Shown piece after piece: positions 3,676-57,190 of a stretch of DNA of 64,000 nucleotides. Each line of letters opens with the position of its first letter. The stretch's first letter is position 1. A program made the translations under genes and the position numbers. The notes beneath the pieces are model-generated. The model had not been told where the DNA came from. It ran no database searches and saw only the letters and a list, made by a program, of their open reading frames with translations. This DNA comes from Sclerodactyla briareus (taxonomy: Eukaryota > Echinodermata > Holothuroidea > Dendrochirotida > Sclerodactylidae), in the NCBI GenBank assembly GCA_026419785.1, contig JAODTK010003232.1, positions 110,267 to 174,266 on the forward strand. Direction: 5' to 3'.

Positions 3676-4237
3676 TCAATTCTCATGCGGAGAAAAAATA
3701 TCATATTTTATTACAATTTCATGCTGCAAGTTTTGTCCATGTTTAGCAGCAAATTTGCTCAACTCACCCAGTGATTGTACCCAATGACCTCCATATTGTT
3801 GAGCTATGAAAGAGTAACTGACTTCAGGCAGTACATTCTCAGTAGTTATTCCAAAGCAACAATACACACTGGCATCTGGAAGAATCTTATCCAGTAAATC
3901 ATGTTGCCAAGTTCTATGTATTTTGGATAGTGTATCAGAAAAACTGGGTATTAAAAAAAATTGGAAGAATGGAGTATCTGTTACTCATTGGGTGATCGAC
4001 TTTACTCCACATTATATAGGGTAAATCCTCCACCTGCCGAGTATTCTTAGAAATAGCTGGACAAGGCAGTCTCTCTATTCTTCTACCGATCTCGAACCGA
4101 GTACATGTAGTCTGAATGAGATGATGAGGGTTGGCTACATGGAGCTCAACATGGTCATCCAGTGGCCAAGCGGAGCCTGGGTTCTCGCACGTCAGTCTGG
4201 AGGATAGGATCTGCCTCCTAGCATCCTTCATGGACAT
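3676..4237 (-). CDS. Unrecognised protein, about 188 codons, one frameshift
   Basis: On the minus strand an ATG at 4,237 opens a frame rich in ordinary protein composition (it contains MSMKDARRQ, then PLDDHVELHVANPHH, then RFEIGRRIERLPCPA). It runs into an 8-base T run (the A run at 3,953-3,960 on the + strand). Moving the frame by one base there continues into another well-formed stretch (SDTLSKIHRTWQHDLL, then YGGHWVQSLGELSKFAAKHG) that ends with a stop at 3,676. The two halves read as one protein interrupted by a homopolymer indel. I do not recognise a family, and there is no signal peptide or membrane segment. A tRNA-like or SINE-like repeat with the TATATAGCGC motif starts just upstream at about 4,290, so the true 5' end may be an exon border or lie elsewhere. 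It could be a host exon or a transposon-borne gene. Confidence 0.5.
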
Positions 4238-4284
4238 TTGTGTGCTACGAGTTTCATACAGGTGAGAAAGATTAGTTAGACATA

Positions 4285-4420: not shown

Positions 4421-5439
4421 ACCACCATAATACTTAGAGCGCGTCTTTGGCACACATAGCAACGAAAGACAAAAAAAAAGAAGAACCTGCTGGCCATACG
4501 CGAGAAGGCGTGTGGACGATATTAGAGATTATGTCATCTCAATAACTGGGAGAGTCCCTGGCGGAGAGTTATGAAGTTAGGGTCAGGAGTTTTCAATGAA
4601 TTTGGTGATACAACAGTGATCCCGGAGAATGGGGGTGATATGATCTCTGCGTTTTGATCTTGTGACTAAGCGCCCAGCAGTGCTCATAGACATAGTTAGG
4701 TTAGATGAACATAGATGGGGCCGTCATGACATGCTGCAGCCTGCAGGGGTCCATGGGTCCAAGCACATGGGTCCAAACACGTGCGAGTGGGTTAGAACAG
4801 CAAAAGCTGAAATTTAATTGAAGTTCAGGAAGATACTTTGGTGGTGTATGTGAGTGTATGTCCCATGCCTGTTCGGCAGAATTTCCCCAAAAGTGTGACA
4901 ACTAATTTTTGAATGTATTTTTGTTTGTGGTGGGCAGTCACGTGACGAGTCTATTAGATTTCGAGTGCAAAAGTCACTAATTAGAGTATTCCGCCTATTC
5001 TGTGTGTTTTTGTCTCTCCTGAAAAGTTATTTGGGCAAGTGCGTATATGTGTATATATGTATGTATGCGTGTGTCACACTAAGTCACACTTGTTTGACAT
5101 CCCAGCCTAATTATTGCAGGAATTCTTAAAGTGGAGGCTGAGGGGGGGGGGGGGGGGGGGAGGGCTTCCTTCGATCCCTTCCCCCAGTACAGCAACCCCC
5201 TAGTACACCACTCTGTTAAACCACTGTTCTCCCCCCCCCCCGTCCCAGTGGCCCCCAAACAGGGGAGTCTGGGGGTGGGGACGACATGGATCTGACTGAC
5301 AGCAACATGCTTAGTGTTAGATATCAATGAATTCTTGTAATTGCATCCCGCAGGTCCCTTGACTTACCAGAGCGAACTCTCAATATTCGTCGACCCTCAT
5401 CCTCAGTGAAGAACGGGCCATCTCCAGCTCGGCTGGCAG
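4421..5439. other. Upstream flank of the receptor exon; low-complexity runs
   Basis: Contains a run of 18 G at about 5,143-5,160 and a C run at about 5,230. Further receptor ligand-domain exons should lie upstream of 5,440, but none was recognised. The stretch 5,367-5,439 is open in another frame and may be coding with a frameshift. Confidence 0.4.
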
Positions 5440-5545
5440 GCTGACCTCATCAAGGGTAACATCGAGTACTTCAAGAGGCTGAAGTGTCTCAAGTTTGACC
5501 CGCAGGAGTTTGCCGTCATGTCCGTTCTTGTACTTTTCTTCCCTG
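5440..5545 (+). CDS. Nuclear receptor ligand-binding domain, exon covering helices 7-8 (partial gene)
   Basis: The exon reads ADLIKGNIEYFKRLKCLKFD, then PQEFAVMSVLVLFFP, then a split codon at CCT-G|gtgagt. This matches the stretch of NR2-type receptors (RXR, COUP-TF, TR2/TR4, PNR) that ends in a hydrophobic (A/V)LF-x-P/S-D motif before the loop to helix 9. Splicing in phase 1 to the acceptor at 13,540 gives LFFP-DAAGLKNIRG, which lines up with the conserved LF..D..GL of this superfamily. The protein would be a ligand-regulated or orphan transcription factor acting in the nucleus. The start of the exon is uncertain: an AG at 5,438-5,439 is a possible acceptor, but upstream sequence in another frame also looks coding. 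DNA-binding-domain exons are not in the window. The donor is followed at once by a TGTATG microsatellite. Subfamily beyond NR2-like cannot be fixed. Confidence 0.85.
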
Positions 5546-5548
5546 GTG

Positions 5549-5597
5549 AGTCCATGTATGTGTGTATGTATGTGTGTATGTATGTGTGTATGTATAC
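5549..5597 (+). repeat. TGTATG microsatellite next to the splice donor
   Basis: Three copies of a 12-base unit (TATGTGTGTATG) start a few bases after the receptor donor site. Read in the exon frame it stays open, so retention of this short segment would add a YVCM-type repeat. Confidence 0.8.
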
Positions 5598-5623
5598 ACC
5601 TTGTGTTATGCTCCCATCCAAAG

Positions 5624-5739
5624 GTGCTCCACAGACTGAGGAAATCCTCTTTCGGAAATTGATTCTCAAGGTGTGTGGAGTGATTTGTCGAATCTCACCT
5701 TCTCTTTTCGATGAGTGCCCCCCGAGTAACGAGGCAGGG
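5624..5739 (+). CDS. Candidate alternative receptor exon 1b
   Basis: An AG at 5,622-5,623 and a donor gtaagt at 5,740 enclose 116 bases. Joined to the receptor exon in phase 1 they read P-GAPQTEEILFRKLILK and on to FDECPPSNEAGG without a stop. The end phase (0) fits the next candidate exon at 5,871. It would replace helix 9 onward of the ligand-binding domain. No homology to a known receptor was recognised, and the acceptor has only a modest pyrimidine tract. Support is limited to open frame, splice signals and matching phases. Confidence 0.3.
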
Positions 5740-5870
5740 GTAAGTGTTCCTGCTCCCGGGATCGGAATTTCATCTATCCATCTGACAGTGTAGCTTTACT
5801 CGTGCGGGCCACTTCTTCCTTACACACGAAAGAAGCGGGGTCAAGTTGGTGTCTGTGATGTGTATTGCAG

Positions 5871-6014
5871 GCGGACACTCTGCCGTACCAGTCACATCAC
5901 TGCTACAACTGGCAACCAAGTTTCTTCCCTCAGCAAAATCAACCTCGGTTAGGCAGAGACCATCAGTTTGTAACCCTGGTCGTTCCTCCCCAGTTCCTTC
6001 AGATGCAGCAATAA
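5871..6014 (+). CDS. Candidate alternative terminal exon 1c
   Basis: After an acceptor TGTATTGCAG at 5,861-5,870 the phase-0 frame reads ADTLPYQSHHCYNWQPSFFP and continues for 47 codons. Its stop, TAA at 6,012-6,014, lies inside the first copy of the acceptor-like repeat. Phase agrees with the donor of candidate exon 1b. If used, it would give a receptor isoform truncated after helix 8. Function unknown; no family recognised. Confidence 0.3.
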   Translation, partial: ADTLPYQSHHCYNWQPSFFPQQNQPRLGRDHQFVTLVVPPQFLQMQQ

Positions 6015-6085
6015 TCAATCTGTATCATAGCTGATCCCTCCCTCCTTCTTCCAGATGCAGCAACCATCAATTTATTTCACATATT
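6000..6085 (+). repeat. First two copies of the acceptor-like repeat
   Basis: CAG|ATGCAGCAATAATCAATCTG at about 6,000 and CAG|ATGCAGCAACCATCAATTTA at about 6,054 are outlying copies of the unit that forms the main arrays downstream. Confidence 0.75.
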
Positions 6086-6533
6086 CAACTCACCCCAGAT
6101 AGGACCTGCACCAACACCCCCTTTGAAGCTGGGCCTCTGGCAAATAAAACCACAAACTGTCACCCATTGCCCCCTTCTCAATTTTTGCCAGACTTATTGT
6201 CTCGCTGGAGCTTTTGGCGTCACATTTGCTTCTAGAATTTAAACCTTTGAATAAGTCCACTGATCACAGAAACTGTTTTCATCCTGTTCTTAGGATTTCA
6301 AGCATCTTTTTGGATCATTTGTGAGCTGTATCCTTTTGCATTTTGTGTGTTTTGAAGGCCTGGAAAAATGAGAAGGGTGATTGGGTGGCCAGTTCGGGGT
6401 TTTATTGCCAAAAGCCCAGCTTGCGCAAAGGGGGTGGTGCAGGATTCTATTAACTGAGGTAAGTTCACAGATTCACAAACCTGTGCTGTTTTGTCTAATC
6501 AGTAACCATTGTTGTTTCCTCCCCAATTCTTCA

Positions 6534-7610
6534 AGATGAAGCAACTATCAATCTGTAACCTTGCTGATCCCTACCTGCTTCCTTCAGATGCAGCAACTAT
6601 CATCTGTAACCTCGCTGATCCCTACCTGCTTCCTTCAGATGCAGCAACTATCAATCTGTAACCTCGCTGATCCCCACCTGCTTCCTTCAGATGCAGCAAC
6701 TATCAATCTGTAACCTCGCTGATCCCCACCTGCTTCCTTCAGATGCAGCAACTATCAATCTGTAACCTAGCTGATCCCTACCTGCTTCCTTCAGATGCAG
6801 CAAATATCAATCTGTAACCTCGCTGATCCCTACCTGCTTCCTTCAGATGCAGCAACTATCAATCTGTAACCTCGCTGATCCCTACCTGCTTCCTTCAGAT
6901 GCAGCGACTATCAATCTGTAACCTCGCTGATCCCCACCTGCTTCCTTCAGATGCAGCAAATATCAATCTGTAACCTCGCTGATCCCTACCTGCTTCCTTC
7001 AGATGCACAAATATCAATCTGTAACCTTGCTGATCCTACCTGCTTCCTTCAGATGCAGCAAATATCAATCTGTAACCTCGCTGATCCCTACCTGCTTCCT
7101 TTAGATGCGCAACTATCAATCTGTAACCTCGCTGATCCCCACCTGCTTCCTTCAGATGCAGCAACTATCAATCTGTAACCTCGCTGATCCCCACCTGCTT
7201 CCTTCAGATGCAGCAACTATCATCTGTAACCTAGCTGATCCCTACCTGCTTCCTTCAGATGCAGCAACTATCAATCTGTAACCTCGCTGATCCTACCTGC
7301 TTCCTTCAGATGCCGCAACTATCAATCTGTAACCTCGCTGATCCCTACCTGCTTCCTTCAGATGCAGCGACTATCAATCTGTAACCTCGCTGATCCCCAC
7401 CTGCTTCCTTCAGATGCAGCAACTATCAATCTGTAACCTCGCTGATCCCTACCTGCTTCCTTCAGATGCAGCAACTATCATCTGTAACCTCGCTGATCCC
7501 TACCTGCTTCCTTCAGATGCAGCAATCATCAATCTGTGACCATAATTACTTCCTCCCTCCTCCTCAGATGCAGCAACCATCGATCTGTAACTATTGTTCT
7601 TTCATACTTG
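6534..7610 (+). repeat. Array A: about 21 copies of a 52-bp unit resembling a 3' splice site
   Basis: Each unit has a CTGAT-type branch-point candidate (CTCGCTGATCC), a pyrimidine stretch (CCTACCTGCTTCCTTCAG) and then ATGCAGCAACTATCAATCTG. The 8 bases after the AG, ATGCAGCA, are identical to the first 8 bases of the receptor exon at 13,541. Copies differ by point changes and single-base deletions. In the phase of the real exon each unit reads DAATINL and then TAA, so splicing to one would end translation within eight codons. Confidence 0.9.
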
Positions 7611-7649
7611 CTGTAAATACTCGCCACTGACTGTCTGACTCCAGGTCAG

Positions 7650-7725
7650 CTGACCGTGCATTAAACGGCGTTAATGCACGGTGTTAATGCACGGTGTCTG
7701 GTGTTAATGCACGGTGGATCGAACG
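7650..7725 (+). repeat. Short tandem repeat of GTTAATGCACGGTGT
   Basis: About four partial copies of a motif around TTAATGCACGGTG occur between 7,650 and 7,720. A partial inverted echo (TTAACCCC...GTGCATTA) lies at about 7,828-7,848. Confidence 0.6.
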
Positions 7726-7864
7726 GGTGAAATCAATGGTCGATTGTGTTTAATCCACATGATATGCCTCCCTTGGGGTTAATTCTAAGGCTGATGCACT
7801 CAGGGCGCTCTCGTGCCTTGCTTGAATTAACCCCGGTTGTGCATTATCCAGTTACTTCCTCCCT

Positions 7865-8110
7865 TCTTCCTCTAGATGCAGCAACTATCGATCTGTGACC
7901 ATGCTTGTTTTTCTTCTGCTCACGTCAGATGCAGCAAATATCAATTTGTAACCATGCCTGTTTCTTCTCTGCTCCCTTTGGATGTAGCAACCATCAATCT
8001 GTTTCCCATAGTTCCTTACTAATTTACACCAGCTTCCTTCAAATGCAGCCACTATCGATCTGTTACCAAGGTTGCTCCCTAACTCCCGCTTCCTTTAGAT
8101 TAGGCACCAA
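7865..8110 (+). repeat. Scattered degenerate acceptor-like units
   Basis: Four to five copies at about 7,875, 7,928, 7,982, 8,042 and 8,096 have the same TAG/CAG-ATGCAGC...ATCAATCTG core but different pyrimidine arms. They sit between array A and the inserted hAT element. Confidence 0.75.
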
Positions 8111-8410
8111 GATTTTGCACGATTTTGAATGGCAAAATGCGCTCTCCCTTTCCCCAAATGCGCGAAAATTGCCAGAAAACGGCAAATGTTGTTCGGTTGC
8201 GATTCGGAAATCAAAGTACATTATTTAACACTCAAACACATGACAAACGCATGCTTTCTTGGAGAAAGGAAGAATCGCAAGTAGTGCTCTGCCAAAATTC
8301 ATGAAAAATGTAATTTCATCTCTAAGTAACAACATAGGCAAGCTGTAAGTTTCATTTAAAAAACAATCGACTCTTCAAAGATAATTTATTAAGTGCTGTA
8401 ACTTCTGACG

Positions 8411-9792
8411 CAGGGACAAAATAGCCGGGCTCAACGTTGCGATTTCTACCCATCGGTCCCCCCCCGTCATGTGTATCGCCTGGTCATTGTTTGAGTATGC
8501 ACTACCGGGCGCAGGTATTTTCATTGCCATGTCGCCCGGTCACAACTGAGCGAACTAGCAGTAGCCTAGGCCTATTTGCTACTAAATATTCGCAGAAATT
8601 GAGCTTCTGCGAAGACATCCAACATCGGCCGTGACACTGACACTCCGACAGTCACGAAAATTAAAGGCCGATCTGATCGTATTCCCATAACAAAAGTTGT
8701 ATAATAAACGCCCGGCCCCACGTGTACACAGACTCACCGAGTGAACTGTGCATTAGAATCAGTGTTCACGCTATAAAGGTGAGGGATCGCGCGATCTGCG
8801 CACTCAACTCAACTCCCGCACAAAAATAATTAATATGTGGGAATGTCCCGCACTGGTCTCCACAACAGGAATAGTAAATTGTGCCTCTTTTCAATCAGTC
8901 ACGCTCTTGGTACTTCAGGCACGATGTAAGCATCCTCGTATCATTGTGTGTCGACATCGTGACACTGTAGAACATGAGAGAAAACACTATTTTTCAGCCC
9001 ACATATCAACTTTCGATGACATGATTTCGGGTAGAATCGGTGTATGTCGCACCTTCTAGGTAACCCCTTGGAATGGGACCAAAATCACTAACTCATTAAA
9101 ATATGCAATCTGAAAACATTTAAAAAATCATCAAATAATGAAACAAGCATGTAGATGAGTTGATACAAACACATTTCATAAAAGAATGAATCATGTTATT
9201 TGCAATGTGTCTTTCAGAAGAACCACTCTTTATGATCTGGCTAGTGTGTCCTGTACAAATCACAGCAAGTTCAGTAGCTTAGTGTACTGCTGCTACCTTT
9301 TGGAAATTAGTGAGGGGAGCCATTGAATTATCATTTTTGTTTTCTTATTTTCACACACAACATCAATTTTGCCTGGGAAGAGCATTCACTATGGCCAGAA
9401 AAATTTTGCTGTCGAAGGATTCGCCCTTTCGGGGACAGTCATGCTGCTATGGGATGGAAGCAGGAATGGTATGGCATGGGGATTATCCCCAAGTACCCAC
9501 TGCCTCTAACAAACGTAACAGAGTTGGCATCTATAAACTCTAGGAATTTCTGACATTTGTGTAACCTAGGCAATGCTGTAGTGGTCACCCGTGATAGAAA
9601 GATGTGGGGATGTGGCATTCATTATGTTCTTGTTTCAAACACACTACATAACAAAACTATGTAAATATTTGATTTTGAAATTGGAGCCCGGTATCCCCAA
9701 AATAGAGCCCGGTTCTCCTCTGATCTTGATTGCCCGGGCTCTACTTTTGGGACCACATAGAGCCCGGTCCAAGAGACCTTATTTTGTCCCTG
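8411..9792 (-). mobile_element. Non-autonomous hAT-like DNA transposon, copy 2 (inverted)
   Basis: Starts CAGGGACAAAATA and ends TATTTTGTCCCTG. It is flanked by CTTCTGAC (8,402-8,409, with one extra g before the element) and CTTCTGAT (9,793-9,800), an 8-bp duplication with one mismatch. Read on the minus strand it matches 351-1,743 along nearly all of its length, including the GAGCCCGG subterminal repeats, here at 9,680-9,770. It carries no transposase. It lies in the receptor intron. Confidence 0.83.
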
Positions 9793-9800
9793 CTTCTGAT

Positions 9801-10780
9801 GATATTTGGAAAATATTTCGAAATTGGGAATAAGAAAATGAACTTGAACTTCTCCGCCGACTACACGATCACAAATTTTACCAAACAGCGATGCAGCTCA
9901 TGCATACGGCAATTAACATAACGAGGACCACGCATGGCCCATCTTTATTGCTCAGGGACCGCCGATGGCTAATTATTAGCGATATGCCAAAACACAAGTC
10001 ACGTACCACCGCAGGTTAGGCCAGCTGGTCACTAAAAATTAGCATTCTGGCTAATCAGATCCTCTTGTCTAGCGGGGTGGATTGAACTGACCAATGAAAA
10101 CATTGCCGCACCGGGAATCACTGATGTATTTATAGTGCACTGTATACGGGAAATCCGGTGTAACTACAGTGATAGGAATTCAACAGGGGAACACGCAACT
10201 TTCAGACATGTCTCAGTGCACGCAATATTCCTATTACAGCCAGAACAATATTATAGTCCTCACTATAGTGTCGGTTCACCTGTGAACGTTCCCGCTCACA
10301 AAATCCTGCGGGCCGGTGACAGTCTGTGCATAATTGTAGCACAAAATTATTGGACGTGACATCGATCTGTTCATATGGGTCATGCAGTGTGTGTACTGAG
10401 CGGCAAGTCAGGTATGTTAATGACACGGTACAGTGCATGGGCTGGCAGTGGAGTGAGTGATTGATGTCAATCCTTCGCATTTTTTTAACCTTTTAAAACT
10501 GACTCGAAAACTGTTGAAACTGAACTCCCTGGGGAGTTGAAGTCATGTAAGTTGCTGCCTGACAACGTAGGCCTGCGCTGTGTAATTTTTAGGTTCTTCA
10601 ACACCAGCCATTCCTTGGTGATTTTTGGATTATTACTACTGGTTTGTTTGTTTTTGGGGATTTTTTTTAAATGAAAAAAAAAATTGGCTATCACGAAACA
10701 TCATGAATTCGCGATGGATTGTAAAATGGCGGAAAAGATAGAAATGAGCATTTTGGCGCGGATCGCGCGGAAATACGATT
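9801..10780. other. Intron segment with nothing recognised
   Basis: No repeat unit, exon or element boundary is visible here. Confidence 0.5.
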
Positions 10781-10785
10781 GCCTA

Positions 10786-11580
10786 TTAGGATGCAACAAC
10801 CATCAATCTGGGACCGTAGTTGCCTCCTAACTCCCGCTTCCTTTAGATGCAGCAACCATCAATCTGTTACCATGGTTAGTTCCTATTTCCATGCTTCCTT
10901 TAGATGCAGCAACCATCAATCTGTTACCATGGTTAGTTCCTATTTCCATGCTTCCTTTAGATGCAGCAACCATCAATCTGTTACCATGGTTAGTTCCTAT
11001 TTCCATGCTTCCTTTAGATGCAGCAACCATCAATCTGTTACCATGGTTAGTTCCTATTTCCATGCTTCCTTTAGATGCAGCAACCATCAATCTGTTACCA
11101 TGGTTAGTTCCTATTTCCATGCTTCCTTTAGATGCAGCAACTATCAATCTGTTTCCATGGTTTGTTGTTATTTCCATGCTTCCTTTAGATGCAGCAACCA
11201 TCAATCTGTTACCGTGGTTAGTTGTTATTTCCATGCTTCCTTTCGATGCAGCAACCATCAATCTGTTACCGTGGTTAGTTGTTATTTCCATGCTTCCTTT
11301 AGATGCAGCAACCATCAATCTGTTACCATGGTTAGTTCCTATTTCCATGCTTCCTTTAGATGCAGCAACCATCAATCTGTTACCGTGGTTAGTTGTTATT
11401 TCCATGCTTCCTTTAGATGCAGCAACCATCATCTGTTACCATGGTTAGTTCCTATTCCATGCTTCCTTAGATGCAGCAACATCAAATTGTACCATGTTGT
11501 TCCTATTTCCATGCTTCCTTTAGATGCAGCAACTATCGATCTGTACCGTGGTTGCTTCCTAAATCCTGCTTCCTTTAGAT
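10786..11580 (+). repeat. Array B: about 14 copies of a 57-bp acceptor-like unit
   Basis: The unit shares the TTTAG-ATGCAGCAACCATCAATC core with array A but has a different middle (CTGTTACCATGGTTAGTTCC). At 57 bp it is a whole number of codons, and it stays open in the receptor-exon phase, giving repeats such as DAATINLLPWLVPISMLPL. Open frames run across it on both strands. The last copies (11,440-11,520) carry many single-base deletions. The final unit is broken after CTTTAGAT by an inserted element. Confidence 0.9.
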
Positions 11581-11845
11581 CAGTGGTTCCCAACCTTTTC
11601 TCCCCATTTCCCCCTTTGCCTTTCGCTTGAAGCCGTTCCCCTTATGAAATACATTATAATGAAGGTTTGATAGGTGGGGAAAGGCGGGAAAGTGTTTAAA
11701 ACTTGCTATGTAATTGTGTTTGTGAACAAGAAGAATTCATAACTCAAAATCCTGCAAAAATTATTACCTTTCTATACATTTTTTCTCCCCTGCCATCTTG
11801 AAATTTCCCCCCTGGGGAGAATTTCCCCCTGGTTGGGAACTACTG
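11581..11845 (+). mobile_element. Small hAT-type MITE inserted in array B
   Basis: Ends are CAGTGGTTCCCAACC and GGTTGGGAACTACTG, a classic hAT-MITE terminal inverted repeat. Flanks are CTTTAGAT (11,573-11,580) and CTCTGGAT (11,846-11,853), an 8-bp duplication with two mismatches. The second flank continues as the rest of the interrupted acceptor-like unit, so the insertion came after the array formed. Confidence 0.85.
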
Positions 11846-11920
11846 CTCTGGATACAACAACCATCAATCTGGGACCGTAGTTGCCTCCTAACTTCTGCTT
11901 CCTCCAGATGCAACCATAAG
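11846..11920 (+). repeat. Acceptor-like units after the MITE
   Basis: The interrupted unit resumes as GATACAACAACCATCAATCT. One further degenerate unit follows (TCCAGATGCAACC at about 11,905). Confidence 0.7.
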
Positions 11921-12860
11921 GCCACCTATTTAAACATAAGCTTGAACATTTATGCACATGATTGTACCTTCGGCTTGGTACATTTGTGCAGTTTTGAGCT
12001 ACAGCACCATTGTTGCTATAGTTACTAGACTTATTTTATACTATTTTATACTCAATGAATTCCAAATGGAATACTACTGTAACCACGACCTTCTATAATT
12101 GCCGAGTGGAGAGAAAGCCCGGAATGCATAAAGAATGATCTAAATGTACACCAGGACCCAAAGAAGTCCGAGTTACCAATGGAGCCAGATTCCGTGATAT
12201 AAGGAAGAAGTCAGGCCGGCAACAGAGGCCATGAATGACATTAGACCCTCCACGTAAATCCTTTTAGTGAGGATTGCGCTCATGCCAAACATCATTTAAA
12301 TATAATGCTGACATGAGTTTGAGACATTTCAACCTTGCCTTTGTTCTTGAATTACCACCCTGTTTATCCAGATATAGATTTAAACGAAATTGAAATCACC
12401 CCCTATAATAATTAAGTTAACAAGAATACCTATAGATGTTCACCAATAAAAAGGATTCTCTGATACTTCAATTTCAGCAACACAAGTCTCCATCACGGGT
12501 GCGGCCCAGCTAATTATCTCCACATCAAATCCGGACTGAGAAGAATGCACACTCCCTACTTTTTGAGGCACCATGACTAAAAATTAAACGACCTTCCCAA
12601 TCATATTGCCATTTGGACTCATCTCTGGGCATGCTATGAGTTTCTTGTAGAAAATTAATATGACTTTTACCCATCTTCAAGTGGGCAAAGACCTTTCGCC
12701 TCTTTCGAACTGCTGTAAGCCCCGCACAATGTATGTACATAACTTCAAGTCTGTCATTTATAGCTTTGTGCGTTAAAAACAGATTCTTGACGCATGTAAT
12801 TCAATTCATGCAAAATCATGTTGGTATCAGAACGATAAGTTTAGGATGATAAGTTGGCTT
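11921..12860. other. Intron segment with nothing recognised
   Basis: No splice-like units or element ends seen until a single copy at about 12,861-12,880 (CTCTAG-ATGCAGCATC). Confidence 0.5.
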
Positions 12861-12886
12861 ATTCCTCTAGATGCAGCATCTCGTAC

Positions 12887-13497
12887 GCCCACCTCACACT
12901 ATACCGAGTCCAACGCCGCAACCTTACGGCCGCTGTGTGCGGTTCCCACAATTGTTGACTGTAAGCTCCTTGCGACTCCTTGCAAAATTCACTGCGTTGG
13001 TTCCCCAGACAGTGCCGGATCACCGTATGTTTTGCACGCGCAGAAGGATGACTTCACGGCAGAAGAAGACTTGGGATAACTTTACTGTTCAAAGTCTTTT
13101 CGCCTCTCCTCCAAAAATTATTGAGGAGTTGACCACTGATGCAAAAAGTGCTACTTTCAGTCGAGCTATGCGCGCGTTCTTATCTGGCCTATTCCTTATC
13201 CCGATTTTATTTGCCATCACAAAACTATGTGGGCCGTGCGGAAACGGTCAACAATACTCTTGCAATGCTTGCGGTCAATCGGCTGCTCGCAGTGGGCCTT
13301 GCGGAATTTCGAAAATTCTCGAACTCCTCTCAAATTCCTTCCTTCAAAATTTGCCGCAACGCCTGCAGTCAATCTGGCTGCTCGCAGTGGCTGAGTTGGT
13401 GCTTGTCGTATGCCTCACACCTTTACGGTCATACACAAGCGACCGCCGAGCATGAAAAGTCACAAATTCAGCAAATTCCGTACAGTGTGAGGCAGGC
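12887..13497. mobile_element. 611-bp element with imperfect inverted ends (CCTCACACT)
   Basis: The left end GCCCACCTCACACTATACC and the right end CCGTACAGTGTGAGGCAGGC are imperfect inverted repeats. The element sits between a broken acceptor-like unit (12,861-12,880) and the final unit that carries the authentic splice site. It has an internal direct repeat of CTGCTCGCAGTGG (about 13,280 and 13,378). Superfamily unknown; no clear target duplication. Confidence 0.55.
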
Positions 13498-13499
13498 TT

Positions 13500-13548
13500 T
13501 AATCTGGTAACCATGGTTGTTTCCTCTCTGCTCCCTTTAGATGCAGCA
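13500..13548 (+). promoter_or_regulatory. Authentic receptor 3' splice site, itself a repeat-unit copy
   Basis: AATCTGGTAACCATGGTTGT, a pyrimidine-rich arm and CTCCCTTTAG|ATGCAGCA match the array B unit nearly base for base up to and beyond the AG. The real acceptor is therefore the most downstream member of the repeat family. Confidence 0.85.
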
Positions 13549-13845
13549 GGCCTGAAGAACATCAGAGGTTATGGATAGGCAGTCCCATTATCTGGAGTGC
13601 CTCCGCCTCTATCAGCTCCACACGTATGGCGCAATCGGGGGACTCAAGCGATACGGCAAGTTCCTCCTGCGGCTCCCGACGCTCCGGATCGTCAGTGCTA
13701 GGCGATGGAGAACTTCTTCTCCCTCCGCCTGGATGGGAAGATCGAGATTACTGCGCTCGTCCAGGAAAGCTCGAGATGTGAAGGTCGGAAGTGGCTTCAT
13801 TCATTTGTCCGGGAGTGGTTCTATCCCTTCAGTGAGTCACTCTGA
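13541..13845 (+). CDS. Nuclear receptor ligand-binding domain, C-terminal exon (frameshifted)
   Basis: In phase with the exon at 5,440-5,545 the first codons give DAAGLKNIRG. A one-base frame change at about 13,565-13,571 leads into MDRQSHYLECLRLYQLHTYG and then KRYGKFLLRLPTLRIVSA, the helix 9-10 signature of NR2-type receptors ((F/Y)GKLLLRLP.LR). A second, opposite frame change at about 13,697-13,704 leads to MENFFSLRLDGKIEITALVQ, matching the helix 11-12 region, where the family has (L/F)FF.(K/R)L.G...I..L. Translation then runs 25 more residues to TGA at 13,843. The usual activation helix (..LL.EML) is replaced by ITALVQES, so coactivator binding may differ or the end may be miscalled. The two shifts cancel, but the uncorrected frame meets TAG at 13,568, so as written the exon is not translatable. 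Confidence 0.85.
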
Positions 13846-17334: not shown

Positions 17335-17665
17335 TCTTCCCCCTCCCCTCTTGAAAATGTAACGCCCCTCCCCACTTTAAATGTAACGCCCCTCCTCCCC
17401 ACTTTGAAAATGTAACGCCCCTCCCCACTTTGAAAATGTAACACCCCTCACCCCTTCTTTGAAAATGTAACGCCTCTCCCCACTTTGAAAATTAACGCCC
17501 CTCCCCGACGCCCCTCCCCACTTTGAAAATGTAACGCCAACGCTGCCCCACTTTGAAAATGTAACGCACCTCCCACTTTGAAAATGTACGACTCCCCTCC
17601 CCTCTTTGAAATGTACGCCGCCCTCCCCATTTGAAATGTAACTCCCTCCACGCTCTTTGAAAATT
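17335..17665 (-). repeat. Minisatellite with CCCCACTTTGAAAATGTAACGCCCCT unit
   Basis: About ten imperfect copies of a unit near 25-30 bp (core ACTTTGAAAATGTAACGC followed by a CCCCTCCCC arm) lie in tandem. Later copies carry many one-base losses. It is open on the minus strand as GG(A)LHFQSG-type repeats, but this is a consequence of periodicity, not evidence of a gene. Confidence 0.85.
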
Positions 17666-25419: not shown

Positions 25420-25951
25420 CTGTGAAACAAATCAGAATTGCTTATTTGACTGGATAACAGAATTCTGCTAACGCATGACTTCGCTCATAAGGCTGGGCTC
25501 AGATTAGGAATGAGCTAAACTAGTTTCAGCTATAGTGCAACAGTCCCATTTGTGCCCCTGCTTGGTCCCACATATACCAGTAAAAATATTAAGTCAATGG
25601 TCAATTATCCAGAGAATTAGCATTATTTATCTGGACAAATAATCTGCTGTGGGTTAAATTAGGATTGAAACTGGAAGAATCTCAATTCTCAAGTCATCTA
25701 TGATCCACTGTTATCAATTAAACCTCTGACAAATATGCTTCATATTTGTGTAATATTCAGGCAAATTAGATGAAGGTTCAAAACAAAAATTGGTCGAAAT
25801 GTGATGATTTTTGTCATCTTCGACGACAAGGTTACCAAGAAATTTGCCCACCACCTCCACCACCCCTCCTCCTCCTTCGTGATGCCAATTTCCTATTTTC
25901 TCCTGAATGAATTGGATGAATGAAGACTATTACTTTCTTCAGCAGTCTTAC

Positions 25952-26134
25952 CACCACCAGAGGGGCAGCACCCCCCCCCCCCCCCCCAGTGGCAGGGGCA
26001 GCCCCTGCACCACTCCCAACGTTGCTGATCAGGGCAACCGATGTCAATGCCCCCAGAGCCTTGGCAAAGAGGCCAGGCCAGTACGACTCCACATCGACTC
26101 CAGCTGCCTTCGTCAGGGTTGTGATCTTGTCAGC
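25952..26134 (-). CDS. RPLP1: 60S acidic ribosomal protein P1, main exon
   Basis: The exon opens after CTTGCTCGACAG with [20 protein letters not shown] and continues [20 protein letters not shown]. This is unmistakably P1, the stalk protein that pairs with P2 on P0 and recruits translation factors to the large ribosomal subunit. Pro-Gly-Leu-Phe-Ala-Lys-Ala-Leu is the P1 hallmark. The intron before the D-K-I segment is at a position I recall for animal P1 genes. An Ala/Gly/Pro hinge follows, interrupted by a 14-base G run and a C run where the frame slips; the donor gtaagact follows TCTGGTGGTG. The exon for the N-terminus (MA..ELA..YSALIL) was not found upstream to 31 kb, so it lies farther away, is missing from this assembly, or this is a partial duplicate. 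Confidence 0.92.
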
Positions 26135-29100
26135 CTGTCGAGCAAGTAGGAAAATAGAGGGGTTTGAGGATATGGTCATTTTTCTAGCATGAACAAACAA
26201 GTTTGGGAGGCCAAGACAATTCTGCCAAGTTTGGGTAGTGAAACCAACTGAATTCTTGTTGACTTAAACATCGACAGTGCCTGTCCAATGAGTCCTCTAT
26301 AAGCCCCAAATACCTTCACTTGGTACTATACGAACCAACACAAACCATGATCATACTATAAATATTACCATGCACAGAAAAACCTGTTAAAAAACTCTTT
26401 CCCTTTACCCAAACAGGGGAGATCACATTTTTGACAAAAAAGGCCAAGAAGTTCCAAATGGGACACTGCTTGAACAGGGGGACGGGGCCCCCCCCTTTGT
26501 GACTAATGATTTGGAAAACATTCAAACCTTTCACCGAGAACTGACGGTTTCTCCATCTCTGTCCCTTTCACAACCATGAAGATTTTAAATGGCTCATCTC
26601 CATACCTGACCGCTCACCAAAACCTATCAAGATATCAAAACTTCTGCAGGCACAGTATTTCTCATGCGAAGTGGCCAACAATTAACTTGTTGCATCATCA
26701 ACTTAACCAGGCAAAATGGGGTCATGATCACCACGTGTTAAAGTGGGTACCTTGTGAGGTGACTTGTGAAGAGTAGCGAGCGCCGTATGTGGCCGCCCTA
26801 TGGGGGAGTCCCCCCGCGGACACTATGTCTGACTTACTGGAATGGTGCGTTGGGCGAGAACAATCAAGAGTCGGTGCTTATAGAAAGCTTCATCGAATTT
26901 TTTTTTAAGATTGGAGGGTAAATGGTGCAAAATGGTGCCTCCTCTTCTTGTGCACAGGTAACGTTTTACAAAGCCACTATAATGTAATATTACATTTGCA
27001 TGCAATTGATTGTTCAACTAGAGTATATTATCCAAATTTCATGTCATTAGATACTTGATATCAATCCAATTTTCATGAAATGGTCATAACAATGATAGGA
27101 AACTCTATACAGTATTATTCTGAAACGTGAGGAATTTGACCGAAACAGTCAACGGCAGCCCCAAGTGATAGATTAGAAAGATAGACAGAAACTACGTTGC
27201 CAACGCATGGTATGACTCATGCATTCTCTTGTCAATATGTGGCTCTACCGAAATTAACTTTTTCGGTTCGATCCAATTGCCGATGTGTTACCAACATAGA
27301 CGATATCCAATCATCAGCCGATCCGGTGGAGCGGGACTGTGATTAAGAGCTTAGTAGTTATCAATTATGAATAAACAACAGAACATTAATTTCTGATGTT
27401 GATCCAACTGACTATTGTGTTGATATACCAGCCGATTATCAGTAACCATCCATAATATGTTTCGTACTCCATACACTACTACATCGTGAAAATATAACTC
27501 CCGCACTGATGTACTTTTAACTTTTCGAAATGCCCCATGGCTCACCTTAGAAGATCGGCGGGGACAAGATCTGCATTCATCATTACATACTGTTACTCTG
27601 AGCCGTTCTCACATGTGGTATTCAGTACAATTTAGCTTTATTCTAGGAGATTGCCAGAGGATGAGATGGGTACCCCCAATCGCTATGGAGGATGAAAATC
27701 TGACCGCTTATTAGTTACTATATAGCTATAGTTTGCAATGCAGTCGACGATTGCAGAGAGGGAGTCAGGGAGACAAACTTGGGCCAAAAGGGAGGCTGTA
27801 ACCCCATAGCAAACACACCCTCCCTATTGTTAAAAAAACTGGCAATGTGGCCATGTCGCCAGCATGCATGGTACCAAAGATTCGCTGATCTATTTTCTGA
27901 GAACCCCCCTAGATTTCAAAACCCCATTTGAGAAATTGTGAAAGGGGGAATTCTCCCCCCCCCCCACATTTTGAAAGCTGGCTAAACACTGATCAAGCCG
28001 AGTACTGCTAGTTCAACAGCTTTCAAGTGCCACATCGTCCTAGTAGTGGGTACACTACTGTTTTGCTGTTGTTCAGTAGATCGAAGTAGATACATGAACT
28101 ACACACACACACTGTGATTACGCATCATAGATAGTGTGCAGTGCTTTTCATGGCTAATTCTTGTTTATTTAAAAAGAGCTCTCGAAAACTCAATAGTAGC
28201 ACCCGAAATGAAATTGACAGGGGCTAGGGAGGAAGTAAACTAGTGTTTTGTTGATTCATTGGCGTGCTCGGACAAGATGACCCACGTCAAAGAAAAATAA
28301 ATAAATGGAATTGCAAGCTGCTGAGTTTTAACTGACCGGCTATAACCTATGAAGGAAATAAACCAGGATTTTGCTGTCATTGGCGGATAGGATGACCCAC
28401 CACCAGGGTTGTAGCTAGAGGAAAATGAGTGCCGGGCATTTTGCATGTGAATTTTGTGAAGATTAGTCATGGATTACTTTAGCGCCGGACCGCTAGTGGG
28501 GTAGGTTTTTTTTTGGGGGCCCAGGTCAAACAGAGGGGCCATATTAGACTATTTTGTGACTGAATCATGGGCCTCCACATCATGGACCCCTATATTTGTG
28601 CATTAGGCAGTATATCTATGACCAAAAAAAAAAACCCAAAAAACAGATTTTTTTTTTTTTTGGTGCCGGTTGGCATGGCTCCAATTCCGCCGGCGTACTA
28701 CAATCCCTGTCCCGACCAATCATTTAAAAAATGATTGCCGTGGAAGACGAAGTGCAAGCCACTGACTGCGTACTAGCAGGTGAATAGAGTTACATCAATA
28801 TGAAACTCTGGCTTTGTTAAGTTATTGGCTTGCCTGGATACCCATTTGAAAATAATTTTGGTAGCGGGATAATATTCCTGCAAATAAACGAACACTGCAT
28901 GTATTTTGTTGTGCTAAGCATGCTTCATATTAGTGCAGTAAATTAAATTTTATTCATTTTTTCTTACTTGTGCTTAATTTTGTTAATAGTGCCTTCACAT
29001 CGATTAGGATTGATTAGAAAAAAATGGCTGTGGTGCCCTATCACACCAAAAACATTTGGCCTTGGTGCCCTAACCGATTGGGCTTGGTGCCCTACAAAAT

Positions 29101-54339: not shown

Positions 54340-56122
54340 ATAAAGTATAGCACAGAACGCCTCATCACCATCTTCCATGAGGGTAGACCATGGCCACCAC
54401 TGGAAATTTTGTAATTGGGGATGGGGTAGAGTTAAAATGTAGCAAATGGTGGTGTTGGTGTAAGAGCATGAGGTGGGGTGATTGGTCCTTTGGTCGCTGG
54501 CCTCCCTGTCTGGGACCTTATGAACCTTCTTCACCTAAAAATGGAAAATTAAAAAAGAAGTAGATCGACTGTTCCTACAGTCAAAGTACAGTTATTTCAT
54601 TAGGAGAGTTGATCATGATGCAGTTTATGCACAATTCTCCACAAAAGCAGTAGTGTCTTGCACCTCCTTACAATGAGTGGAAATTCAGTCGCAAATTTCT
54701 CCATAATGGCAACCCCCTCGTTGTAGCTTTCAACTCCAGGAATTGTTGTGTCAGAATGATGTTCTGTTTGCGAATGCGGTTTTTTGCTAACACTATGTAC
54801 TTCTCCACTTGCTCAGCCAATCTCGAAAATTCTGATGTTATGTATCATTAGCATGTTTTACATTTTGGAGGGGGATTCATTTAATGTATGTTCTAGCAGT
54901 ATTATAGATTTCTCCCTTTTGAATTAATTTGAGTATTAATGACAAAGAACCATGCTCATACCTTTTCTTCTTCGCTTCTCATGTTTTCAGTTGCCCATTC
55001 ATTTCAAAGTTCCCATTGTCAACCTGATTATCCATAAGCTATTTTGACTATTTAGCCATCATCTTATTTGCTCGTTTAATGTTTTGCTTCTTTTCACAAC
55101 CATTGTTTTACTGTACGTCTACACTTGGGTGCTAATATATCTCCTCACACAAGCAGGCTTTACAGTCTGGGGCAGAATCGGTGAATCCATCTAACTAGGA
55201 AAGTGAATTAACGATGTTCTTTCCTATGAGACACTTCCATTCCATCCTGGCCTATTGGTTACCGCTACTTTATGGAAGTTGGGGGAGAGGCTGGTCGGGG
55301 GAAGGGGGCCGGGGGAGAAGGGGCGAATTCAAAGCGGTGAGGGGCTCCAGTTTGTGTGTGGGCAAAAGACATGGTGTGTGGAGTGAAACAGGATCATTTC
55401 CTGGGTGATGTGTGATAAAATATGTGTTCAAAATGTGAGTCAGAATGTTGGCTGACTTGTGAGAAAAAATGTCAACGATGAAAGGCTAATAGGACGACTG
55501 GTTTGGGCGCATCTCTCTCATTTTTTTTTTTTTCTTTTTTTTTTCTTGAAACTCATCTGGCTCTCTCATCAGTGTGGTTTATAAACAGGCTGAATCTTCG
55601 GACAAGGAACTTGAATAATAATCAACAAAGGACGATCAAAATTTTGTAGGCGTTACATATACACATGCCCGTCTGGGAGCAGTTCGGCTACGTGAACTGG
55701 CATATTGTTTGATGCCTGTTGTTGGAAAGAGGTGGTAAGTTGTATGAGCCCAATTCAATAACTTCCTGGACTCAAAACAGACTCGTACCATAGTGTAATT
55801 ATTTCTGATGTTAATTTTTCCCAGGAAATCTACTTTGTCCTGGGATTCGGAAGTGTTTTACTATATCACTACCAGTGTTGTAACAGGTCATGACTGGGGT
55901 CACTACTTTTTAAATACGAATTGGCTCGAGCAAATTTATGAAAATTTCCCCATTAAATCAGTAGAGTGACTCAAGTCGCATAAATCTCATGACTTTGGTG
56001 ACTTTACAACAGTAACACTATCTACCTATGATGAATAGTGTGCACGTATAATGAAACATTATAATGTTTTCACATCAAACAATTCATCAGAGCTTGACTC
56101 GTTTCATCTCATCTACCCCCAG
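54340..56122. other. OAF intron, 3' part; nothing else recognised
   Basis: Non-coding, with T-rich and G-rich patches (55,520-55,545; 55,270-55,330). Confidence 0.4.
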
Positions 56123-56405
56123 GTGTCAACGCCACCTTCTCAACCCTATCGGGTGCCGTCCAGCGGCAGCCTTCGCCAAGACTTCCCCCCGGTGCGGGAC
56201 ACCGTGGACTTCTGGAAGCCCTGCGTGTGCCACGTGGACGTCTGCATCGGCTGGTACCCCTGCGGACTCAAGTACTGCCGGGGCCGGACTCCGCGGGAAC
56301 AACGTCAACTACCGGTGTGGGATCAAGACCTGCAAGAAGTGCCGGGGATTTGACTAATACATAGCGCAGAAATCGTCTTGCCTCTGGGATAACGATCTGA
56401 GCTAG
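56123..56405 (+). CDS. OAF: OAF homologue, terminal exon (two frameshifts and one in-frame stop)
   Basis: After ATCTACCCCCAG the phase-correct frame gives GVNATFSTLSGAVQRQPSPR. At the six-base C run 56,185-56,190 the frame changes to VRDTVDFWKPCVCHVDVCIG and WYPCGLKYCRGR. Around 56,284-56,300 it changes again to GNNVNYRCGIKTCKKCRGFD. Next comes TAA at 56,355-56,357, then, in the same frame, YIAQKSSCLWDNDLS and TAG at 56,403. Cysteine spacing (CVC...WYPC.LKYC...CGI..C..C) and the closing CLWD motif are those of the OAF C-terminus, where FD(F/Y)YV precedes ..Q..LCLWD. The TAA therefore replaces a conserved aromatic residue. With two shifts and a stop, the exon is either mis-sequenced or decaying. 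Confidence 0.9.
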
Positions 56406-57190
56406 AGGAGGGAGGTATTGTTAATGGGATGTTGGCTACCATCCCATGAGACAATGACAACTACTTGGTGTGAATTGCAGTAGATTTGACTTGCCTCTTT
56501 TCTTGCCTCTGGGATCATGATCTGAACTGAAAAAGGTATCATCAAGGATAGGGAGGCTAGGAGCAATGACAACTCCTTGGTGTGGGATCAAGACCTGCAA
56601 GAAGTGCCGGGGATTGATTACTAAATTAGGCAGAAATCGTCGGGCCTATGGGATAACCATCTGAGCTAGAGTAGGGAGTATTGTAATGGGAGTTTGGTAC
56701 CATCCCAGGAGACAATGACAAATACTTGCTGGTGAATTGCAATTCACAGAGATTTGACTTGCCTCTTTTCTTGCCTCTGGGATCATGATCTGAACTGAAA
56801 AAGGTATCATCAAGGATAGGGAGGCTAGGAGCAATGACAACTCCTTGGGTGACAACTCCTTGGTGTGGGATCAAGACCTGCCAGAAGTGCAGGTGATTTG
56901 GCTACTGTAAAGCATGGAAAATATTATTCTGCCTCTAGGATCATGACTGAACTGAAGAAGGTATCATTAGTGTAGAGTGGCTACGCTCACATGAAACATG
57001 GCAACTACTTTCGTGTGAAATCAAGACCTTCGAGTAGAGCCAGAGAACACAGAATGACCTGGCCCTGGGATCATTATTGAACTTGGCACAAGGTGATGTC
57101 CTATGAACCTTGGCCCCTACCTTAGTGTGGGATGGAAGGTCCAGGCTATTTGCAAAAATCATCCTGTCTTTGTCATCATGACTGAACTAT
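56406..57190 (+). repeat. About six decaying tandem copies of the OAF 3' end
   Basis: The words GTGTGGGATCAAGACCTGCA, GAAGTGC, ATTTGAC and TTGCCTCTGGGAT..TGAGCTAG/TGAACTG of the terminal exon recur with 110-150 bp spacing at about 56,465, 56,577, 56,725, 56,865, 57,010 and 57,122. The copies at 56,571-56,669 and 56,862-56,960 are closest to the exon; those beyond 57,000 are barely recognisable. Intervening text (GGTATCATCAAGGATAGGGA) is also repeated, so the larger repeat period is about 285 bp. Confidence 0.85.

Follow-up and report, generated by a model that had tools for sequence, protein, structure and literature searches.

Why should the last intron of a receptor gene carry some forty copies of the splice site at which it ends, and what becomes of them when the transcript is spliced? 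The question is raised by a 64,000-nucleotide stretch of the sea cucumber Sclerodactyla briareus (contig JAODTK010003232.1, contig positions 110267–174266, within a 319-Mb assembly), hereafter the window, whose own coordinates are used throughout. Here, the last intron of the coding region of what looks by homology like an NR7-type nuclear receptor gene contains two arrays and several scattered units of a minisatellite that repeats the intron's own 3′ boundary. An earlier note on this DNA knew of no described family of this kind. However, minisatellite-like duplications of intron–exon boundaries, termed mirages, have been published from amphioxus, and their authors conclude that regular splicing is undisturbed (PMC3087553, PMC3902484). 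We consider it very probable that the sea cucumber locus is a minisatellite of this type, tolerated and spliced out with the intron.

The intron lies on the plus strand at 5546–13540 (7995 bp), between a good donor that reads CCCTG/GTGAGT (the slash marks the splice boundary; GT at 5546–5547) and an acceptor AG at 13539–13540. Tandem Repeats Finder identified array A at 6529–7591 (52-bp period, 20.6 copies, 94% matches) and array B at 10790–11580 (57-bp period, 14.1 copies, 92% matches), in agreement with the two periods noted earlier. Arrays and scattered units together comprise 47 unit positions, chosen by eye and including the authentic acceptor, against a first estimate of about 45. The AG is kept in 42 of these and lost at 7980, 8041, 10789, 11244 and 11850. 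A word search of the 64-kb window for AG followed by ATGCAGCA returned 33 occurrences on the plus strand, all within 6001–13539, with the authentic acceptor as the last.

Repeat-like sequence, delimited by blastn with both units and an old tract as queries, falls into six plus-strand tracts that total 2401 bp. An old degenerate tract at 5953–6083, also recovered by the word search, has AGs at 6001 and 6053. Array A sits inside the tract 6497–7609 and is followed by an old tract at 7858–8100, which holds the unit closest to the authentic acceptor (7980); array B occupies the tract 10786–11580, and a further old tract at 11846–11916 has an AG at 11906. The last tract, 13501–13548, is the authentic acceptor unit, in which 40 bases belong to the intron and 8, ATGCAGCA, open the exon. 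The word search adds a truncated plus-strand unit, TTCCTCTAG/ATGCAGCA, at 12860–12878 (AG at 12869), which is not among the blastn tracts. With the repeat covering ~30% of the intron, the earlier description of an intron filled with copies was too strong; the remainder is other sequence, partly with transposon-like ends.

The repeat is confined to this intron as far as the searches extend. Blastn over the whole 64-kb window found, at E ≤ 0.01, neither minus-strand matches nor any beyond the intron, and the core word, with up to four mismatches, was not found in the 50 kb upstream. Whole-genome searches, which scored five candidate regions each and so yield lower bounds, returned at least 20 matches for array A and at least 15 for array B, all of them (20/20 and 15/15) inside the NR7-like intron, and thus no second locus. 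A wide occurrence of the repeat outside introns, which the earlier note would have held against its own reading, was therefore not observed.

The authentic acceptor truly belongs to the repeat. When the sequence surrounding 13540 was aligned locally with unit A, unit B and an old unit, the scores were 24, 26 and 30, whereas the best other stretch scored 13, 15 and 13 (3197 stretches of 70 bases per unit, on both strands, with the intron masked and the acceptor's own stretch excluded), so that its description as the last member of the series stands. The likeness stops after ATGCAGCA, 8 bases inside the exon; the tandem unit spans the boundary, with an intronic tract, the AG and 8 exonic bases. 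Together with the preceding G, ATGCAGCA encodes Asp-Ala-Ala within the receptor motif PDAxGL, which reads PDAAGLK in two relatives (P0001 and P0002), PDASGLK in amphioxus NR7 and SDACGLS in COUP-TF2. The ATGCAGCA part is conserved across receptors and is therefore probably older than the array. Because the shared exonic bases are conserved receptor coding text, the array most probably arose from the acceptor, copying from acceptor to array being the simplest direction.

Units differ markedly in age. The pairwise identity of 19 A units averages 0.937 and that of 10 B units 0.959, against 0.643 for 14 scattered units including the authentic acceptor; the mean identity of the authentic acceptor to A, B and scattered units is 0.686, 0.744 and 0.669, respectively (four poorly aligned units, 10789, 11469, 11850 and 12869, are omitted from all means). 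Its closest relative, old unit 7980, agrees with it in 41 of 52 aligned columns. Homogenisation is found inside A and B and does not include the boundary units, with weak support from a tree of the units. The intron also holds three stretches with inverted ends, all given on the plus strand. The non-repeat stretch 8101–10785, between two tracts, contains an element at ~8411–9792 with CAGGG ends, CAGGGACAAAATA and TATTTTGTCCCTG, forming an inverted repeat, which we take to be hAT-like. An insert within a repeat unit, at 11581–11845 by the blastn tract edges and presumably hAT-like as well, has inverted ends CAGTGGTTCCCAACC and GGTTGGGAACTACTG and flanks CTTTAGAT and CTCTGGAT, alike at six of eight bases. 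The third stretch, 12887–13497, follows the truncated unit and precedes the authentic acceptor; its 21-nt inverted ends are 81% complementary. With an insert lying inside a unit and young units contrasting with old ones, the inserts would have broken up an earlier array, two parts of which expanded afterwards.

Are the copies still recognisable as splice sites? Most units retain a plausible pyrimidine tract and AG, which bears out their description as copies of a 3′ splice region, except that the AG is absent from five of the 47. The claim that all carry branch-point-like text holds for the 19 A units at 6586–7515, which have an exact yTnAy (CTGAT) 18–19 nt ahead of the AG, but not for the nine AG-bearing B units at 10902–11415, which lack yTnAy and offer TNAY-type text only (TTAC 33 nt or TTAT 17 nt ahead). 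At the authentic site the comparable text is TTAAT, 37 nt ahead of the AG, and TAAC, 29 nt ahead. With a 3′ splice weight table not trained on this species, the authentic site scores 8.59, which is equalled or exceeded by 41 of the 3503 AGs in the window, the units themselves being included in the ranking. Eighteen of the 19 A units score 8.29 and the other, 7103, scores 6.82, as do the B units; units 6053, 7566, 7874, 11906 and 11577 lie above the authentic site and 10845 equals it. AGs scoring at least 7 occur at 4.6 per kb within the intron and 1.9 per kb outside. Unit scores are thus not low; it was low scores that the earlier note would have counted against its own reading.

Each of the decoys read out from the donor (40/40) stops within the intron and would truncate the receptor. 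Fourteen of the 19 A-unit decoys add seven residues before the stop, ten of these being DAATINL, whereas the nine B-unit decoys at 10902–11415 stop after 10 to 181 residues and unit 10845 after 200. Array B is open in the receptor frame over 10845–11446, where it reads as a 19-residue repeat, DAATINLLPWLVPISMLPL, and the whole array can be read without a stop in two plus frames and one minus frame. These frames stay open because the 57-bp unit is a multiple of three and free of stops, and a coding function for them was set aside. The B units at 10902–11415 also contain ATG/GTTAGT, with seven of nine matches to a donor consensus, so that each might in principle serve as a 28-nt microexon. A recursive splicing site was rejected, as the unit AG is followed by AT and not GT.

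The assignment of the gene is based on the joined 112-residue peptide of two exons, whose best PDB match is the NR7 structure 7q71 (E 5e-16). Against the Pfam profile Hormone_recep it scores 22.1 bits, under the cut-off of 23.5; single frames of the last exon have no PDB or Pfam match, and the profile found no match over the whole genome or in 14 control genomes, which makes that search uninformative. Two of 116 candidates from a large protein database matched the joined peptide, the better one (P0001, 79% identity) being named by NCBI 'steroid hormone receptor ERR2-like' of Apostichopus japonicus. The ligand-binding domain (LBD) of P0001 scores 169 bits against the NR7 LBD chain versus 106.6 bits against the best ERR-gamma LBD chain. 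NR7 has been reported in echinoderms (PMC9535869).

Matches of the relatives are collinear on the contig, with the DNA-binding domain (DBD) at about −5975 to −5779, a linker at −787 to −538 and further blocks at 4061–4262, 5347–5544 and 13568–13767. The upstream coding exon, 5354–5545 on the plus strand, encodes part of an NR7-like LBD (tblastn, P0001 residues 219–277, E 3.65e-14, 55% identity); it begins after the acceptor CCGCAG/GTCCC, ends at the donor described above and contains an internal stop and frame breaks. The exon that follows the intron, 13541–13785 on the plus strand (end approximate), matches P0001 residues 288–331 and 332–353 in different frames, and is assigned as the last coding exon because matches of the 359-residue P0001 reach residue 353. 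P0001 has 11 matches in the assembly, five at this NR7-like locus, the only one found, and six that are DBDs at three other loci.

Collectively, these observations suggest the following history. The boundary of the last intron and last coding exon (~44–49 bases of intron and the 8 bases that open the exon) would have been duplicated in tandem, and slippage or unequal exchange would then have extended the array in the direction of the donor. It would then have aged and been interrupted by transposon-like inserts, after which A and B were probably re-expanded and homogenised. The terminal unit would remain the working acceptor, since it encodes and defines the real exon, and the upstream copies are most likely removed with the intron and tolerated, by analogy with amphioxus.

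Several observations weigh against this account. Normal splicing of the gene is itself inferred by analogy, and the genome searches covered few regions. The edges of the non-repeat stretches 6084–6496, 7610–7857 and 11917–12859 are provisional. In the tree (44 rows, few columns), 22 of 33 inner branches stay open and the authentic acceptor has no placement; the tree recovers A as one group with weak support (41/69) and requires two changes for B. In addition, frame breaks occur in all five exon blocks of the NR7-like gene, and its DBD blocks are poorly kept (52% and 46% identity to P0001). The gene could therefore be dying, with no need of correct splicing, and the array could be neutral debris in a pseudogene. 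Such an outcome is compatible with a mirage origin, and we regard it as possible though rather unlikely. Counted in its favour too is that no intact copy that might cover for this sole NR7-like locus was found among the regions searched. Against it, the LBD text near the breaks is well kept relative to A. japonicus (the last block is identical at 22 of 22 residues, two others reach 80% and 84%, and the pre-intron exon 55%). Frame breaks are also present in other genes despite conserved protein text, which is why assembly indel errors are the favoured explanation: the matches switch between two frames at two of the three other receptor DBD loci, the OAF (Out-at-first) gene at 56080–56460 matches successive parts of the OAF_C Pfam profile in two different frames, and the 60S acidic ribosomal protein gene at 25832–26263 shows a frame jump when set against family text. 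Given such possible indels, little weight should be put on single-base differences between units.

The earlier note suggested that the copies could delay, regulate or diversify splicing. They might work as a ladder of decoys that compete with the authentic acceptor and divert a regulated share of transcripts to forms terminated in the intron, truncating the receptor presumably at about the end of LBD helix 8. The closeness of most A units to the authentic site in score (8.29 versus 8.59), the six units that reach or exceed it, the consistent termination of decoys inside the intron and the seven-residue products of most A units would all suit such a role, and the stops would have no downstream junction if the 3′ untranslated region has no following intron. 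We nevertheless consider it improbable, as the splice weights are not trained on this species, the loss of AG from five units is expected without constraint, and the unlike products of A and B (mostly 7 versus 10 to 200 residues) argue against one selected product. Amphioxus mirages, moreover, are reported to leave splicing regular (PMC3087553, PMC3902484). A more elaborate version, in which each extra unit raises decoy use so that copy number tunes splicing, and a stable receptor ends in D-A-A-T-I-N-L (A) or the in-frame 19-residue repeat (B) without the rest of its LBD, seems to us slightly less probable still. We give about the same small weight to the other origin offered by the earlier note, that an older minisatellite supplied the acceptor in place of a previous one. 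It would accommodate the ACCATC, or a variant, that stands between ATGCAGCA and AATCTG in the units and not beside the authentic acceptor, but the stretch with inverted ends just upstream of the acceptor unit would account for the missing bases, and the eight exonic bases encode conserved residues of a receptor motif, which favours upstream copying of the acceptor. Least credible is a transposon-borne satellite or introner-like repeat inserted at this site. Although the same intron holds stretches with inverted ends, there are no dispersed copies among the at least 20 and at least 15 genome matches, all within the NR7-like intron, and the last tract ends at exon position +8; this origin was set aside.

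Two other repeats lie in the window. At 56314–56910, the terminal part of OAF's last coding exon recurs downstream as a 268-bp unit (two copies, 90% matches), with a third partial copy near 56863, and is possibly a second boundary-type duplication. Tandem Repeats Finder also reported, at 17340–17664, a C-rich minisatellite with a unit of ~26 bp (CCCCTCCCCACTTTGAAAATGTAACG) that has no relation to the acceptor array.

If the mirage reading is correct, boundary-spanning minisatellites are not limited to amphioxus, which bears on the published proposal that introns may be gained from mirage repeats (PMC3087553). The locus also constitutes a natural test of how the spliceosome chooses among near-identical AGs, with ~40 acceptor copies ahead of one real site and position, exon definition and unit strength as possible determinants. 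Related cases are known. Minisatellites at exon–intron boundaries of human segmental-duplication genes may give rise to new introns or switch on cryptic splice sites; their ~30-bp units, ~4 repeats on average, alter exon or intron length and form no long acceptor ladder (PMC2812944). The ABCA7 variable number tandem repeat likewise lies within an intron and affects splicing, an effect stated in the title of the report (PMC5954066). No echinoderm mirage was found in the open-licence literature, of which coverage was partial, and this is weak evidence of absence.

The closest counterparts are the amphioxus mirages of the globin genes BflGb6 and BflGb9, of Adh3, and, as additional cases, of troponin C and PGBD5 (PMC3087553, PMC3902484). 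In Adh3 the units measure 10–72 bp, and reverse transcription PCR suggested undisturbed splicing (PMC3087553). The published mirages share with the sea cucumber array a tandem, minisatellite-like duplication across an intron–exon boundary (the 3′ end of the intron in BflGb6), splice signals kept by many but not all units, and homogenised inner units with non-homogenised cluster boundaries. The NR7-like intron accordingly displays each of the four mirage features examined, namely a unit that spans the boundary, an authentic boundary that belongs to the repeat, partial retention of signals and inner homogenisation. It departs from these descriptions in its lineage, its transposon-like inserts and the limitation of each unit to 8 exonic bases. 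BflGb6 has three or six units of 150–160 bp in two haplotypes, whereas the sea cucumber intron has units of 52–57 bp at 47 positions. The structure is real, remarkable but recognisable, and would be a mirage in a sea cucumber genome whose units greatly outnumber those of the amphioxus globin genes.

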